This document shows positions 4,655-14,943 of a stretch of 64,000 nt of DNA, piece after piece (within the stretch, counting starts at the first letter, position 1; each line of letters begins with the position of its first letter). Location: contig NZ_OBQC01000011.1 of the NCBI RefSeq assembly GCF_900220965.1, forward strand, positions 1 to 64,000, written 5' to 3'. The translations under genes were made by a program, and so were the position numbers. The notes beneath the pieces were generated by a model. That model ran no database searches and was not told where the DNA came from. It saw only the letters and a program-made list of their open reading frames with translations. This DNA is from Ureibacillus acetophenoni (lineage in GTDB: Bacteria; Bacillota; Bacilli; Bacillales_A; Planococcaceae).

Positions 4655-5491
4655 ATGCAGATTATTCAGCAATTTACAGACTTTACACCTGTAAATGTTA
4701 TTGTTAGCTTTTTAGACGTACTACTTGTCTGGTACGTTGTATATAAATTATTAACCCTCATTAAAGGTACGAAGGCTGTTCAATTATTGAAAGGTCTATT
4801 TGTTATTATCTTTTCAAGAATTGCAACAGAAATATTAGGTCTTGATACTTTAGGATGGATGTTGCAACAAGTTATTGACTTCGGATTTATAGCGATAATT
4901 ATTATTTTCACACCTGAAATTCGAAGAGCTTTAGAACAACTTGGGAGAGGAAAGATCTTTCAGCGATCAACAAGTCAAATTGGCGATGAACAAACTCGAT
5001 TAATTGAGGCGATTAAAAAAGCCGTTAGTTACATGGCAAAACGCCGAATTGGAGCACTTATCTCCATTGAAAATGAAACAGGACTTACCGAATATATTGA
5101 AACAGGCATAAAAATGAATGCCGATATAAGCTCGGAATTACTCATAAATATATTTATCCCAAATACACCATTACATGATGGAGCTGTTGTCCTAAAAAAG
5201 ACTAAAATTGAAGCAGCTGCCTGTTATTTACCACTATCAGAAAGCACATTTATTTCTAAAGAGTTAGGTACACGTCACCGTGCAGCTCTTGGTTTAAGTG
5301 AAGTAACCGATGCCATTACCATTATTGTTTCCGAGGAAACAGGAGCGATTAGTTTGGCTAAGAACGGAAATTTAAATAGAAATTTAACAATTGATGAATT
5401 TGAAACGAACCTGAGAAAAATGTGGTTTGGTCCAGAGCAAGATTCGGATCTATCCTCTAAGTGGACTTGGAGGGGGAAAAAGAATGGATAA
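4655..5491 (+). CDS. cdaA: Diadenylate cyclase CdaA (membrane c-di-AMP synthase)
   Basis: 278 residues. Three N-terminal membrane helices (about 12-35, 42-60, 73-88) are followed by a DAC/DisA_N catalytic domain. The two signature motifs of c-di-AMP synthases are intact: DGA (175-177) and RHR (207-209). The enzyme condenses two ATP into cyclic di-AMP, which in Firmicutes controls potassium and osmolyte transport. It is followed by cdaR (overlapping by 8 nt) and glmM, the conserved three-gene module in which CdaR and GlmM modulate the cyclase. The start follows a GGGGG-type ribosome binding site. Confidence 0.95.
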   Translation: MQIIQQFTDFTPVNVIVSFLDVLLVWYVVYKLLTLIKGTKAVQLLKGLFVIIFSRIATEILGLDTLGWMLQQVIDFGFIAIIIIFTPEIRRALEQLGRGKIFQRSTSQIGDEQTRLIEAIKKAVSYMAKRRIGALISIENETGLTEYIETGIKMNADISSELLINIFIPNTPLHDGAVVLKKTKIEAAACYLPLSESTFISKELGTRHRAALGLSEVTDAITIIVSEETGAISLAKNGNLNRNLTIDEFETNLRKMWFGPEQDSDLSSKWTWRGKKNG

Positions 5492-6545
5492 ACTATTTGA
5501 TAGTCCTTGGATATTACGAATTACCGCATTGGTACTTGCGATCTTAATGTTCTTTTATGTTAAATCATTGCTAAATGAAGGGATTACATCGACTTCAAAC
5601 AATCATGTAGATGTTTTAACAGATGTTCCTCTTGAAGCGTATTATGATTCAGATAATTTAATTGTTTCAGGTTTGCCTGATACAGTAGATGTAACGATAG
5701 AAGGACCAATGCCAATCGTACTAAATACAAAGCTGAAAAAGGATTTTAAACTATTTGTTGACTTAAATACATTGTTAATTGGGGAACATGAAGTTAAAAT
5801 ACAGACGGAAGCCTTCTCGGACAAATTATCTGTAAAAGTTAACCCAGAGACTGTAAAAATTTCAATTGAAGAAAAAGTAACAGCTGAACTACCTATAGAA
5901 CCCGAAATGAACTATAACCTTATTAATGAGGCATATGTTCTTGAAAGTATGGTTGCTGAACCAAGCACAGTATTTGTCACTGGTGCAAAAAGTGTTATTG
6001 CTAGTATAAATTACGTAAAAGCAACTGTGACAGGTAATCCTGGCATCGACCGTTCGTTTGAGCAAGATGCTGAAGTTAAAGTCTTGGATAATAAGTTAAA
6101 TAAATTAGACGTTGCCATTGAACCAGCAAAAGTTAAGGTGAAAGTAGAGTTAGCGGAGTATAGTCGTGAAATTCCGATTCGAATTCAGCAAGTAGGTACA
6201 CCGAAGGAAAATGTAACAATTAACCGACTATCAACGCCGACCTCATTTGTCCAAGTATTCGGTCCTAAATCCATTATTGACGGATTGACTGAACTAATCG
6301 TAGAATTTGACGTGACAGAAATTGAAAGCACGGGTCAATATGAAGCGAGCCTATCAGTACCAAATGGTGCAACTAAGCTTTCTACGAGTAGCATCATTGT
6401 ACAAGCAGATGTTACTAAAGAGGAAAGTACTACCTTGGATGATGAAGAATCTTCTAACGAAACAACAAATGAAGAACAAACATCAGAAACTGTAGAAAGT
6501 AATACAATTAATAATTCTGAAAGCAACAATTCCAATGGACAGTGA
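5484..6545 (+). CDS. cdaR: CdaA regulator CdaR (YbbR-domain protein)
   Basis: 353 residues. One N-terminal membrane anchor (about 9-28) is followed by extracytoplasmic YbbR repeats, roughly three of them up to residue 310, then a low-complexity Ser/Asn/Glu/Thr-rich tail. It is shorter than the B. subtilis protein, which has about 480 residues and more repeats. The start at 5484 is chosen because GGAGGGGG precedes it; the frame is open further upstream inside cdaA. The partner cyclase overlaps it and glmM follows 101 bp later. Confidence 0.9.
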   Translation: MDKLFDSPWILRITALVLAILMFFYVKSLLNEGITSTSNNHVDVLTDVPLEAYYDSDNLIVSGLPDTVDVTIEGPMPIVLNTKLKKDFKLFVDLNTLLIGEHEVKIQTEAFSDKLSVKVNPETVKISIEEKVTAELPIEPEMNYNLINEAYVLESMVAEPSTVFVTGAKSVIASINYVKATVTGNPGIDRSFEQDAEVKVLDNKLNKLDVAIEPAKVKVKVELAEYSREIPIRIQQVGTPKENVTINRLSTPTSFVQVFGPKSIIDGLTELIVEFDVTEIESTGQYEASLSVPNGATKLSTSSIIVQADVTKEESTTLDDEESSNETTNEEQTSETVESNTINNSESNNSNGQ

Positions 6546-11194: not shown

Positions 11195-11199
11195 ACTCG
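11195..11199. repeat. 5-bp target-site duplication (left copy)
   Basis: ACTCG abuts the TGT terminus. An identical copy lies at 27218-27222. A 5-bp duplication is the Tn7 hallmark. Confidence 0.93.
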
Positions 11200-11208
11200 T
11201 GTTGAAAG

Positions 11209-11286
11209 ACAAAAAAGTCGGGAACTGAACAAAAAAGTTGGGAACTGGACAAAAAAGTCGGGTACCAAACAAAAAAGTTGGGAACT
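11209..11286 (+). repeat. glmS-proximal transposon end: four TnsB-type binding sites
   Basis: Four directly repeated 18-bp sites lie at 11209-11226, 11229-11246, 11249-11266 and 11269-11286. The consensus is ACAAAAAAGTYGGGAACT and the period is exactly 20 bp. Close packing of four sites matches the right end of Tn7. Confidence 0.92.
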
Positions 11287-11292
11287 AACATT

Positions 11293-11328: not shown

Positions 11329-11424
11329 AGTTATTTTAAAAATAGTAAAGGAATTATCCAATTGATTGGAAATTGTGATATTGTAAAATTAATGAAATAA
11401 TGAAGTATGGAGAAAAGTCCATTC

Positions 11425-11466
11425 TTCAACTAACAGAACATAATAGTTGAATTAAAATGTTATAAT
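11425..11466 (+). promoter_or_regulatory. Inverted repeat and -10 element upstream of the CopZ-like gene
   Basis: TTCAACTA (11425-11432) and TAGTTGAA (11444-11451) form a perfect 8-bp inverted repeat. A TATAAT lies at 11461-11466. The placement suggests an operator beside a promoter; no good -35 was found and no regulator is encoded next to it. Confidence 0.4.
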
Positions 11467-12430: not shown

Positions 12431-12544
12431 AAAGAATTTTTAAAAATATCAGCCTTATTGTGCTAAACCAGCTAATAGTTTGTCAATAATTTTCTATAAA
12501 AAGATTAATAAGCTCATGCTATACTAAAAAAGTGCATGCCAAAT

Positions 12545-12576
12545 AACCTTCCTAATTATTATTGGAAGGTTTTGTT
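12545..12576 (-). terminator. Hairpin in the IS110 right end
   Basis: On the minus strand, AACCTTCC and GGAAGGTT form 8-bp arms followed by ATTT, 22 bp after the transposase stop. It can act as a weak terminator in either direction. Confidence 0.55.
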
Positions 12577-12597
12577 GTATTAACTTAGATATAGTTA

Positions 12598-13836
12598 TTA
12601 AGCTATATCCTGGAACGTAGTTCTGCTTTTTAATAAGGCGTAAATCCAATGTAAGAGCTTATTAACACATGCTATTACGGCGACTCTGAAGGGTTTTCCT
12701 TCTTCACGTTTTTTGTCGTAAAACTCTCTTAGTCTTTTATTTCGTGGAATAATCTCTTCGGTTGTCTTAGATTTTCGTGCATCTCGAATACCGCTCTGAA
12801 CGGCCATATATAAGGCATGGCGAAGCCTATTAGATCCTCGTTTGGTTATTCGGTTAATTGATGCAGTAAATTTTCCTGATGAATATACACTAGGATCTAC
12901 TCCAGCGAATGCAACGAGTTTTTTGGCACTATTAAACCGATCTATCTCTCCAATCTCGGAAATAATCGTTGCAGCGATTTTTTCTCCGATTCCAGGGATA
13001 GATTGGAGTAATTCATATTCTTCAATCTCTTGAGCGAGAGAATCAATCTCATCTGCTAACTTTGATAAATGCTCTTGGTATTGAAGAACAATCTTTATTA
13101 ACATCTCAAGATTAAAAATATGGCTTTCGTAAAGGTTATGTTGAAACGGGTTACGAAGTGCTGCTTCTTTTAATTTTATTGCTCGTTCATTTGCCCATTG
13201 TTCAGATCGACTCGTACATAGTGAAGCTATTTTCTCCGTTAATTCTTCTTCCGTAACACTTAATACTGCCTCAGAAGTAGGGAAGGCTAGTAAAGTATGT
13301 AATGAAACTTTTGAATACAAGCTTCCAAATACCCCTCGATATTCGGGGAAAACCTGATCTAATAAAGAATGGAGCTGTACTTTCGTCTTTGCAGCGATTT
13401 CCGCAATACTCTCTTGTTGCCGCGTAAGGTTACGAAGATTTAAGAGTTGTATTCCTCTTTTTTTATAAGGTTCTAATTCTTCCTTATAAAACAGTTCACA
13501 AAGGTGATAAGCATCAATTGCATCTGTTTTAACCTTTCTAAGACTTGAGCTTTTGGCTCGATGTGAGATAAGTGGATTGATGATAATATAAACATATTTT
13601 TGTTCATCTAAGAATTGAACCACAGGTATATGATAATGCCCCGTAGATTCCATTACGACCGAAGGTTGAACTCCATTAGCAGCTATTTCTACCTCATGAA
13701 GAAACTCTAAAAAAATCTCTAAACCTTTAACATTATGCTCAATACTAAAACTCTTACGATATGGTTTACCTTTATCTAAAAAAGCTTGTACTTGGCTTTC
13801 ACCTTTAGAAACATCCAGGCCAACTACTGGATTCAT
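12598..13836 (-). CDS. IS110-family transposase (RNA-guided recombinase family)
   Basis: 412 residues. The N-terminal RuvC-like DEDD domain starts VVGLDVSKGESQVQAF and contains VMESTGHYH and KTDAIDA. A coiled-coil segment spans about 230-270. The C-terminal transposase_20 domain has the helix-hairpin-helix motif SIPGIGEKIAA, FAGVDP, SSGKF (candidate for the conserved serine) and KRGSNRLRHAL. Length is typical. In this family an RNA from the left end bridges donor and target DNA. The long upstream leader on the minus strand places it in the IS110 rather than the IS1111 subgroup. The start follows GGAGATG closely. Confidence 0.93.
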   Translation of the reverse strand: MNPVVGLDVSKGESQVQAFLDKGKPYRKSFSIEHNVKGLEIFLEFLHEVEIAANGVQPSVVMESTGHYHIPVVQFLDEQKYVYIIINPLISHRAKSSSLRKVKTDAIDAYHLCELFYKEELEPYKKRGIQLLNLRNLTRQQESIAEIAAKTKVQLHSLLDQVFPEYRGVFGSLYSKVSLHTLLAFPTSEAVLSVTEEELTEKIASLCTSRSEQWANERAIKLKEAALRNPFQHNLYESHIFNLEMLIKIVLQYQEHLSKLADEIDSLAQEIEEYELLQSIPGIGEKIAATIISEIGEIDRFNSAKKLVAFAGVDPSVYSSGKFTASINRITKRGSNRLRHALYMAVQSGIRDARKSKTTEEIIPRNKRLREFYDKKREEGKPFRVAVIACVNKLLHWIYALLKSRTTFQDIA

Positions 13837-13863
13837 ATATACATCTCCTTCAATTTATTCGAT

Positions 13864-14018
13864 TAGTCGGTATCCCCTAAGGCTCCTTGTAATGTCATAG
13901 GTTCGCTTGTTAAACGGGATCATGGTCCCAACCAGCCTGAAACATGTTTATACAAGTAGGGGGTGAACAGTTTAGCTAACGGGATCGAGTCCCACGGAGG
14001 CGACGTTCTACCCCGACT
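13864..14018 (-). ncRNA. Candidate IS110 bridge RNA
   Basis: On the minus strand, TAGTCGG (14019-14013) and CCGACTA (13870-13864) can close the RNA. The first stem-loop has outer stem GGGGT/ACCCC, inner hairpin GGGA-CTCGA-TCCC and two 16-nt loop sides. The 5' side contains GCCTCCGT, identical to the left flank plus core, and the 3' side contains GCTAAAC, the complement of core plus right flank. In the second stem-loop (AGGCT/AGCCT outer stem, inner GGGA-CCATGA-TCCC) GCTGGTT matches the right end plus core, and GCGAAC pairs with core plus left end. This is the target-loop/donor-loop layout of IS621-type bridge RNAs. Confidence 0.78.
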
Positions 14019-14024
14019 ACCGTT

Positions 14025-14052
14025 ATAATAAGACCATATAGAAAAAGGTCAA
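14025..14052 (-). promoter_or_regulatory. Promoter for the bridge RNA and transposase
   Basis: On the minus strand TTGACC (14052-14047) and TATTAT (14030-14025) are separated by 16 bp. Transcription would start near 14018, at the first base of the predicted RNA. Confidence 0.6.
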
Positions 14053-14224
14053 CCAGAAATATCTGGCTAACCTTATATTACGAACGGAGGCTTTACTTCA
14101 TTAAGAAGTAAAGCTTATTTGTTCTTTAGTTAACGAGCGAAAATGCTATATGACTTTAAAGGGATTTTATGAAATGATGTAGAAGATAAGAAAGGATTAG
14201 AATCTTTTTCAGAGGGGGATGAAA

Positions 14225-14814: not shown

Positions 14815-14943
14815 TTGAATTGAACAAAAAAATATTTACTTTTAAAAAATTTAATTAGAAATATATTTTTTCATTAATTTGTTTTTTTTGTTAGGGTTTT
14901 TGTTGGGAAAATTTGTGACAAGTATGAATAAGTTTCAGTGCCT

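Follow-up and report, generated by a model that had tools for sequence, protein, structure and literature searches.

A putative bridge RNA matches both junctions of an IS110-group element in Ureibacillus acetophenoni

Introduction

A 64,000-nt stretch of Ureibacillus acetophenoni DNA (contig NZ_OBQC01000011.1, positions 1 to 64,000; hereafter the window) contains an insertion sequence whose non-coding left end carries short strings matching the DNA at both junctions of the element. The locus raises the question of whether these strings are the guides of a bridge RNA that directed the insertion, and at which bases the strands were exchanged. An account made earlier from the letters of the window (the sequence-only reading) had proposed an IS110 element with a two-loop bridge RNA, four guides and a GT core. 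Bridge RNAs, guide-target covariation and natural re-direction have already been published, as passages of PMC11208160 and PMC11187229 attest. We conclude, with a probability of about 0.93, that this is an intact IS110-group element moving by bridge-RNA-guided recombination, and that its exchange core is TT (sometimes AT) rather than GT.

Results

The element and its transposase

The boundaries of the element (Table 1) were taken from the ends of homology with full relatives together with placement of the core by unoccupied sites. Whether other copies share these ends had been named as a check by the sequence-only reading; they do, as homology to full relatives in 25 genomes of the genus, its own included, stopped at about 14087 and 12465. 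Matches to the element were found in 12 of these 25 genomes, and the window's genome contained one full copy and two short partial matches. In the TT frame 246 nt of non-coding DNA precede the start codon and 131 nt follow the stop codon, the left end being the longer.

Both DEDD_Tnp_IS110 and Transposase_20 scored above their cut-offs in the transposase, and NF033542 scored 260 bits (cut-off 140). The protein shows sequence similarity to IS621 and ISCro4, whose structures are solved (8wt6, E 5.9e-22). When matched by eye, its residues D8, E63, D105, D108 and S320 align with D11, E60, D102, D105 and S241 of IS621, the catalytic residues as numbered in a passage of PMC11208158. At the donor junction we found, by eye, a short subterminal inverted repeat of 5 bp (TATTA..TAATA). 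Elements of the IS1111 type are marked by an RNA downstream of the gene and subterminal inverted repeats of 7-17 bp; here the RNA lies upstream and the repeat is only that of 5 bp. No Rfam family matched the element at gathering cut-offs. Judged by sequence, the element belongs to the IS110 group and is IS621-like, a kind that is already known.

Table 1. Coordinates of the element, its RNA, guides and junctions in the window
Feature	Position	Strand	Remarks
IS110-group insertion sequence, intact	12465-14084	minus	
Element between both TT cores	12467..14082	minus	1616 bp; 1618 bp with one core
Transposase gene, intact	12598..13836	minus	412 aa; PF01548 and PF02371
Bridge RNA region, modelled	13862..14025	minus	164 nt; comparative fold; upstream of transposase gene
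Left-end hairpin AAGGTTAGCCAG..CTGGTTGACCTT with T run	14042..14074	minus	fold
Putative promoter boxes TTGACC and TATTAT	14052-14047 and 14030-14025	minus	read toward bridge RNA; by eye
Left target guide GCCTCCG and core base T	13994..14001	minus	same letters as left target 14091-14084
Right target guide GCTAA	13972..13976	minus	complement of core TT and AGC
Putative handshake guide AC of target loop	13970..13971	minus	complementary to donor positions 6-7 (GT)
Left donor guide GGCTGGT and core base T	13930..13937	minus	6/7 against right end AGCTGGT 12473-12467
Right donor guide GCGAA	13902..13906	minus	pairs with core TT and CGT, one wobble
Left target GCCTCCG	14085..14091	minus	equals left target guide
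Left core copy TT, from target	14083..14084	minus	
Right core copy TT, from donor	12465..12466	minus	
Right target AGCACAATAAG	12454..12464	minus	same letters after unoccupied CCTCCGTT in window's genome

The surroundings of the element were also inspected. Directly after glmS, at 11195-11290, lie four repeats of the type gacaaaaaagtcgggaac, which we take to be the likely end of a Tn7-like element, TnsA/B/C-like genes being recognised from near 14938. At 11420-11455, in the Tn7-like cargo, is TTCAACTAACAGAACATAATAGTTGAATTAA, a degenerate copy of the palindrome described below as the target repeat.

Structure of the bridge RNA

The 66 usable copies of the element (see below) gave 54 distinct sequences, of which 38 were aligned with MAFFT and folded comparatively. 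The fold comprises an outer stem and two loops, each with an inner hairpin of the GGGA..TCCC kind; in the window each pair of guides brackets such a hairpin. Eleven of the 42 pairs had changed on both sides, a number reached in none of 500 shuffles, and 99.3% of the cells were paired, compared with 34.5-43.5% when the partners were slid. Four of five measures exceeded all 500 shuffles, and the fifth, further pair types, was not above shuffled values (423/500 as high). The single-sequence fold was not significant (z -1.09). When 200,000 Markov-shuffled copies of the RNA were searched with a pattern of the loop geometry that had been fixed after the sequence was seen, the first loop turned up twice and the second in 50 cases, and the two never arose in the same copy. 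Domains, similarity to IS621 and the comparative fold thus bear out the proposal of an IS110 element with a bridge RNA, and the covariation supports both of the stem-loops with inner hairpins that the sequence-only reading had drawn.

Guides and junctions in the window

On the minus strand GCCTCCGT is present at 14001-13994 and again as the left flank at 14091-14084, and the right junction reads AGCTGGTTTAGC at 12473-12462. The remaining guide strings proposed earlier were found where they had been placed, GCTAAAC at 13976-13970, GCTGGTT at 13936-13930 and GCGAAC at 13906-13901, and all four guides match the junctions of the element. The further proposal that these matches define both ends and the target held in part: the guides do match the junctions, and the GT core that went with it shifts the ends and adds a T to the empty site. 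With TT as the core, the donor is AGCTGGT-TT-CGTAAT and the target GCCTCCG-TT-AGCAC. C13901, next to the right donor guide, can pair with target position 7 (G).

Guide-flank matching among relatives

We examined 86 sequences, namely 80 loci, 5 from a search of the genus and the window. From these, 74 rows were parsed, each holding the guides and flanks of one copy; 6 were dropped because they were cut or masked and 2 as duplicates, leaving 66 usable rows. Fifteen loci yielded no row. The extraction pattern missed L061, L062 and the outer copy in L064, in which guide and flank (GCGCCC) visibly agree; the left end is truncated in L040, L049, L058, L100 and L114 and interrupted in L050; L065 and L085 start only at the gene; the right end has changed in L098 and L106; the assembly of L088 is duplicated; and L060 is inserted at a site that looks like its own right end. 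The row pattern fixes the right end as TTAGCTGGT, so that invariance of the right end is by construction.

Positions 1-7 of the left target matched the left target guide at 5.42 of 7 positions on average, compared with 4.03 after shuffling, and positions 10-14 of the right target matched their guide at 3.30 of 5 compared with 2.65; neither value was equalled in 5000 shuffles of the 66 rows, a significance that is overstated as the shuffles ignore kinship of the rows. Matching of the right target was modest, with observed and expected frequencies per position of 0.89/0.69, 0.83/0.64, 0.50/0.39, 0.73/0.65 and 0.35/0.28. On the left, guide and flank agreed at 7/7 in 31 rows (shuffled mean 5.7, maximum 13 in 2000) and at 6/7 in 12. 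The check proposed by the sequence-only reading, in which the flanks of other copies are compared with their own target loops, therefore came out in its favour, with 43/66 rows at 6/7 or better ungapped. The other 23 rows agreed at 5/7 or less ungapped, and 13 of these reached 7/7 when one extra target base was allowed (shuffled mean 3.6, maximum 9), the commonest case (3/13) being CTGCCCCG against the guide CTGCCCG. In L099 and L105 the left match was poor with or without the extra base.

Seventeen left target guides occurred among the 66 rows, and the transposase tree requires no fewer than 24 changes between them (shuffled mean 40.5). This tree was made by a quick method (LG+G4) from 65 sequences, 54 of them different, L045 being too short to include. 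The nearest relatives of the window carry GCTCCCG and GCACCCG, and the window itself has GCCTCCG in both guide and flank. Rare guides, present in one or two rows, matched 7/7 in the window, L043, L071 and L086, which argues that guide and target have really changed together. Other one-off guides matched less well (6/7 in the second copy of L033 and 3/7 in L099) or only with an extra base (L063, L067 and L069). In G005, of the same genus, two contig ends carry GCGCCCG as the flank and a guide of which GCGCC remains, the contig breaking off within it. For the second loop, the first regular expression matched no row and was replaced, and the automatic column for the left donor guide often caught the wrong stretch; donor-guide matching rests on sequences read by eye.

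Some copies showed irregularities at their ends. Upstream of 3001 in L100 there is a AAGCCCCCGT-to-AAGCCCCCGT deletion, the guide serving as a direct repeat of the target. At L060:2742-2760 the left end adjoins CTATTAGCTGGT, a sequence similar to the right end of the element itself, as in an insertion into a right-end-like site. Two right-end-like sequences lie tens of bases apart beside the element in L115, L116, L128 and L181, with a spacing of 34 bp in L128 and 76 bp in L115 and L116. The left end and bridge RNA are present twice in tandem in L064, L088 and L108, joined near GGTCTGGA and with N in two of them; these tandem ends are probably an assembly artefact. L076 and L077, records of two species, have the same right flank and different left flanks, which on the sequences compared is a rearrangement at the element.

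Handshake bases

The AC of the target loop is complementary to donor positions 6-7 in all 66 rows and to its own target in 1, and is putatively the handshake guide. Because both sides are constant, this agreement is consistency, not covariation. In the second loop the corresponding base forms a Watson-Crick pair with target position 7 in 32/66 rows; with its own donor it does so in 0/66, a wobble being possible in 38/66. For IS621, passages of PMC11208158 describe bases past the core part of each right guide that pair with the other DNA after exchange.

The core is TT

Empty sites were rebuilt from both junctions of each copy and sought as 13-mers, the TT frame giving a site one T shorter than the GT frame. 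In the TT frame the rebuilt site was found unoccupied for 27 of 66 rows, the window included, whereas in the GT frame it was found for 3 (L041, L075 and L092). The sequence-only reading had set the core at GT, one base off, and had suggested a search for the empty site; its site, GCCTCCGTTTAG, had 0 matches in the window's genome because of this shift, whereas the TT form was found. The same genome contains four unoccupied CCTCCGTTAGNNNAA sites (reversed control 0), and exact unoccupied GCCTCCGTTAG occurs there at least three times, at two of these four sites and at L146. A loose half-site search did no better than its reversed control (43 vs 69 matches). A further site of the window's genome, L249, agrees with the rebuilt site of the window over 20 bases (CCTCCGTTAGCACAATAAGG) and has A for G at guide position 1. 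Raw counts on both strands of the loci from L182 onward gave 210 for GCACCCGTTAG and 114 for CTGCCCCGTTAG, against 0 and 1 for the GTTTAG forms, and the flanks of the named loci contain GCACCCGTTAGTT once, GCACCCTTTAGTT seven times and GCACCCGTTTAGTT not at all.

The left core was TT in 54 rows, AT in 11 and CT in 1, and the right core was TT in 65/66. The second core T was present at 66/66 left and 65/66 right junctions, left ends having been picked by a pattern that starts with this T. Among the matches listed for sites of the form GCCCNNTT..TTGAATAA in the genus, 29 of 58 read GCCC-GA-TT. AT left cores are explained by the frequency of such sites, since the left junction would keep the target's core. 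In IS621 the second core T is likewise nearly invariant and the cut falls directly after the core, according to passages of PMC11208158.

Alternative explanations

With GT as the core, the target would be GCCTCC-GT-TTAGC and the donor AGCTG-GT-TCGT, and the right-hand guides would match over a greater length. Both 3′ guides are indeed also complementary to GT (7 and 6 pairs), the right junctions read GTTT in 65/66 rows, and rare GTTTAG sites exist, two among the matches listed and one CTGCCCCGTTTAG. The counts of unoccupied sites given above, in the rows, in the window's own genome and at the loci from L182 onward, all speak for TT instead, and all rows among the matches listed have one base, not two, between G and TAG. 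The seeming extra pairs are accounted for by the handshake guide, in the sense described in passages of PMC11208158: the match reaches to GT because the AC would pair there with the other DNA. We consider a GT core very unlikely.

Two further explanations leave the core aside and question the role of the guides. A flank copied into the guide after insertion, by gene conversion or local recombination, would mean that the guide did not choose the site. Each matched copy does contain guide and left flank as a direct repeat, and the left end of L100 was deleted exactly between the AAGCCCCCGT of the flank and that of the guide. Rows sharing one guide, in contrast, have different outer flanks and matching left targets (GCACCCG in 19 rows, CTGCCCG in 17), the right side matches separately and in complementary orientation, and the same sites are present empty elsewhere; we regard copying as even less likely than a GT core. 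Least likely of all is that the hairpin shape of a repeat was recognised rather than the letters of the guide. Many rebuilt flanks are palindromic repeats, as this would require, but within the palindrome family a change of left guide goes with a change of flank, some rebuilt sites have no clear stem by eye, and the solved complex of IS621 shows its guides paired to both strands of the DNA (a passage of PMC11208158). Insertion directed by the guides of the bridge RNA is the reading that we retain.

The target repeat and cassette-like modules

The joined flanks of rebuilt insertion sites were often palindromic. Of 200 family genomes, 63 contained the palindrome CAACTAA..TTTAGTTGAA, frequently in numerous copies, compared with 13 matches in 12 genomes for the reversed control, and GCACCCGN{1,2}TAGTTGAA in 47 of 200, compared with 0 for the control. 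Two loop types that are prominent among the matches listed, GCACCCG and CTGCCCCG, correspond to the two commonest guide classes (19/66 and 17/66 rows). In three array regions the repeats lie between small genes, co-oriented and often every 0.5-1 kb. Co-oriented palindrome arrays with small genes between were seen at L212, L213, L214, L215 and L290-L299 (dense in L212, L213 and L291), and resemble integron cassette arrays without a canonical integrase. The array of L212 also contains, at 4890-6167, what we take from its look to be a different IS110-like transposase gene of 425 aa; near-identical copies of this element are present at six further places of that genome.

When a 12.6-kb array stretch was compared with nine genomes of the same genus, many matches of single genes were obtained. 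In selected pairs (L290/L291, L212/L330, L212/L268, L212/L331, L212/L332 and L212/L259) modules of 481-1258 bp with 93-99.5% identity end at palindromes and have unrelated flanks. A palindrome was present at one end only in L212 compared with L260 and L251, and in a match of 395 bp between L290 and L291. One mark of an integron is that modules of a single gene, with folded sites as their borders, recur in unrelated contexts, and the selected pairs are of this kind. No canonical integron integrase (TIGR02249) scored above cut-off in any of 12 genomes searched.

A Xer-like tyrosine recombinase of about 280 aa, with NF040815 above cut-off, is itself a recurring module (for example L291:7941-8780, minus strand, and L292:5041-5886, plus strand). 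The module has sharp ends: its left end reads ..CTGCNNCG|TT[A/T].. in 16 of 22 upstream sequences and its right end ..CTAAAGCACCCG|TTAGTT or a close variant in 16 of 25. The recombinase was found in 58 of 200 family genomes (E 1e-60) and falls into a closer set, with identity of at least about 80%, and a second set at about 62-68%. Recombinase and palindrome occurred together in 37 of the 200 genomes, recombinase only in 21, palindrome only in 26 and neither in 116 (Fisher p about 1e-9, from a table made by hand and with kinship ignored). The exact AACTAA..TTAGTT palindrome was present within 1.5-kb flanks at 16 of 30 recombinase loci and at 0 of 10 Xer-type controls, and a second, looser pattern at 12 of 30 and 2 of 10. 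G091 is repeat-rich yet contained no such recombinase at the cut-off used, and the five loci fetched for the second set (L325-L329) had no downstream site. In G197 (L307) the downstream site of the recombinase module itself holds an end like those of the IS110 clade, and in G003 and G011 no more than about 1.5 kb separates the IS110 copy from a second-set recombinase gene.

There is, in our estimate, an even chance that the target palindromes are recombination sites of an undescribed integron-like cassette system of Bacillales, with the Xer-like protein possibly the cassette recombinase and the bridge RNA clade specialised on both left halves (CTGCCCCG and GCACCCG), its TT core falling at the module boundary. 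The proposed cassettes would be single-gene modules that start with TTAG.., end with ..ACTAAAGCACCCG, form co-oriented arrays and move between unrelated contexts, a description that we hold to be equally balanced between right and wrong. Homologous exchange between repeats could be another way of shuffling modules. We found no report of the target repeat in the open-access library searched, whether by its letters or as integron sites of Bacillales. A review (PMC8618304) counts Firmicutes among the phyla with integrons, and according to passages of PMC9024848 complete integrons are extremely rare there, with one case and a few clusters without integrase.

Discussion

The anatomy of the element, the comparative structure of its RNA, the matching of guides to flanks and the unoccupied sites are observed; the course of transposition, from transcription through circle formation and cleavage to strand exchange, can be proposed by homology to IS621. 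The element would leave as a circle with the expected junction AGCTGGT-TT-CGTAAT. Transposase and bridge RNA would then bring together this junction, bound by the second loop, and the target GCCTCCG-TT-AGC, bound by the first. The top strands would be cut directly after the TT core and exchanged, so that the core would be that of the target at the left junction and that of the donor at the right. Only once the strands had been exchanged would the target-loop AC pair with the donor GT. The differing target guides of relatives would track their own insertion sites, mostly loops of the family-wide palindromic repeat.

The known IS1111-attC group (ISKpn4, ISPst6) is reportedly the subject of work by Tetu and Holmes in 2008 and by Post and Hall in 2009. 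Its members, according to passages of PMC11187229, are also RNA-guided and aimed at the folded recombination sites of cassettes, here of cassette-like modules; unlike the present element, they belong to the IS1111 type, carry the RNA on the downstream side of the gene and have integron attC as their target. The element described here is of the IS110 type, and its palindromes are candidate sites rather than established attC. The joint change of target guides and targets among relatives is like the natural re-direction of ISEc11 and ISXne4 described in part of PMC11187229, with the difference that here many guide changes (24 on the tree) fall within one set of relatives.

With IS621 the element shares a DEDD and a Tnp domain with a conserved serine, a long non-coding left end and a two-loop RNA (passages of PMC11208160 and PMC11208158), left guides that equal the top strand and right guides that are complementary, a core whose second T hardly varies, handshake bases in the target loop that complement donor positions 6-7 (PMC11208158, in part) and insertion into chromosomal repeats, REP in the case of IS621. 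It differs in its core, TT or AT rather than CT, in its target repeat, in the length of its transposase, 412 aa compared with 328 for the IS621 chain in the structure match, and in that 13 of 66 natural insertions need one extra target base for a full match to the guide.

The cassette-like target system is the part of these findings that may be new. One set of relatives, spread over many hosts and carrying 17 target guides, provides a clean natural case of bridge-RNA retargeting, in which empty sites fix the core to the base and the handshake guide is complementary to the donor in every row. These copies also offer ready-made test pairs for a Gram-positive TT-core bridge recombinase, some of them with sites that are longer by one base. 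Should the palindromes at the targets prove to be cassette sites, they would point to integron-like gene shuffling in a group where complete integrons are, by the account in PMC9024848, reported to be extremely rare.
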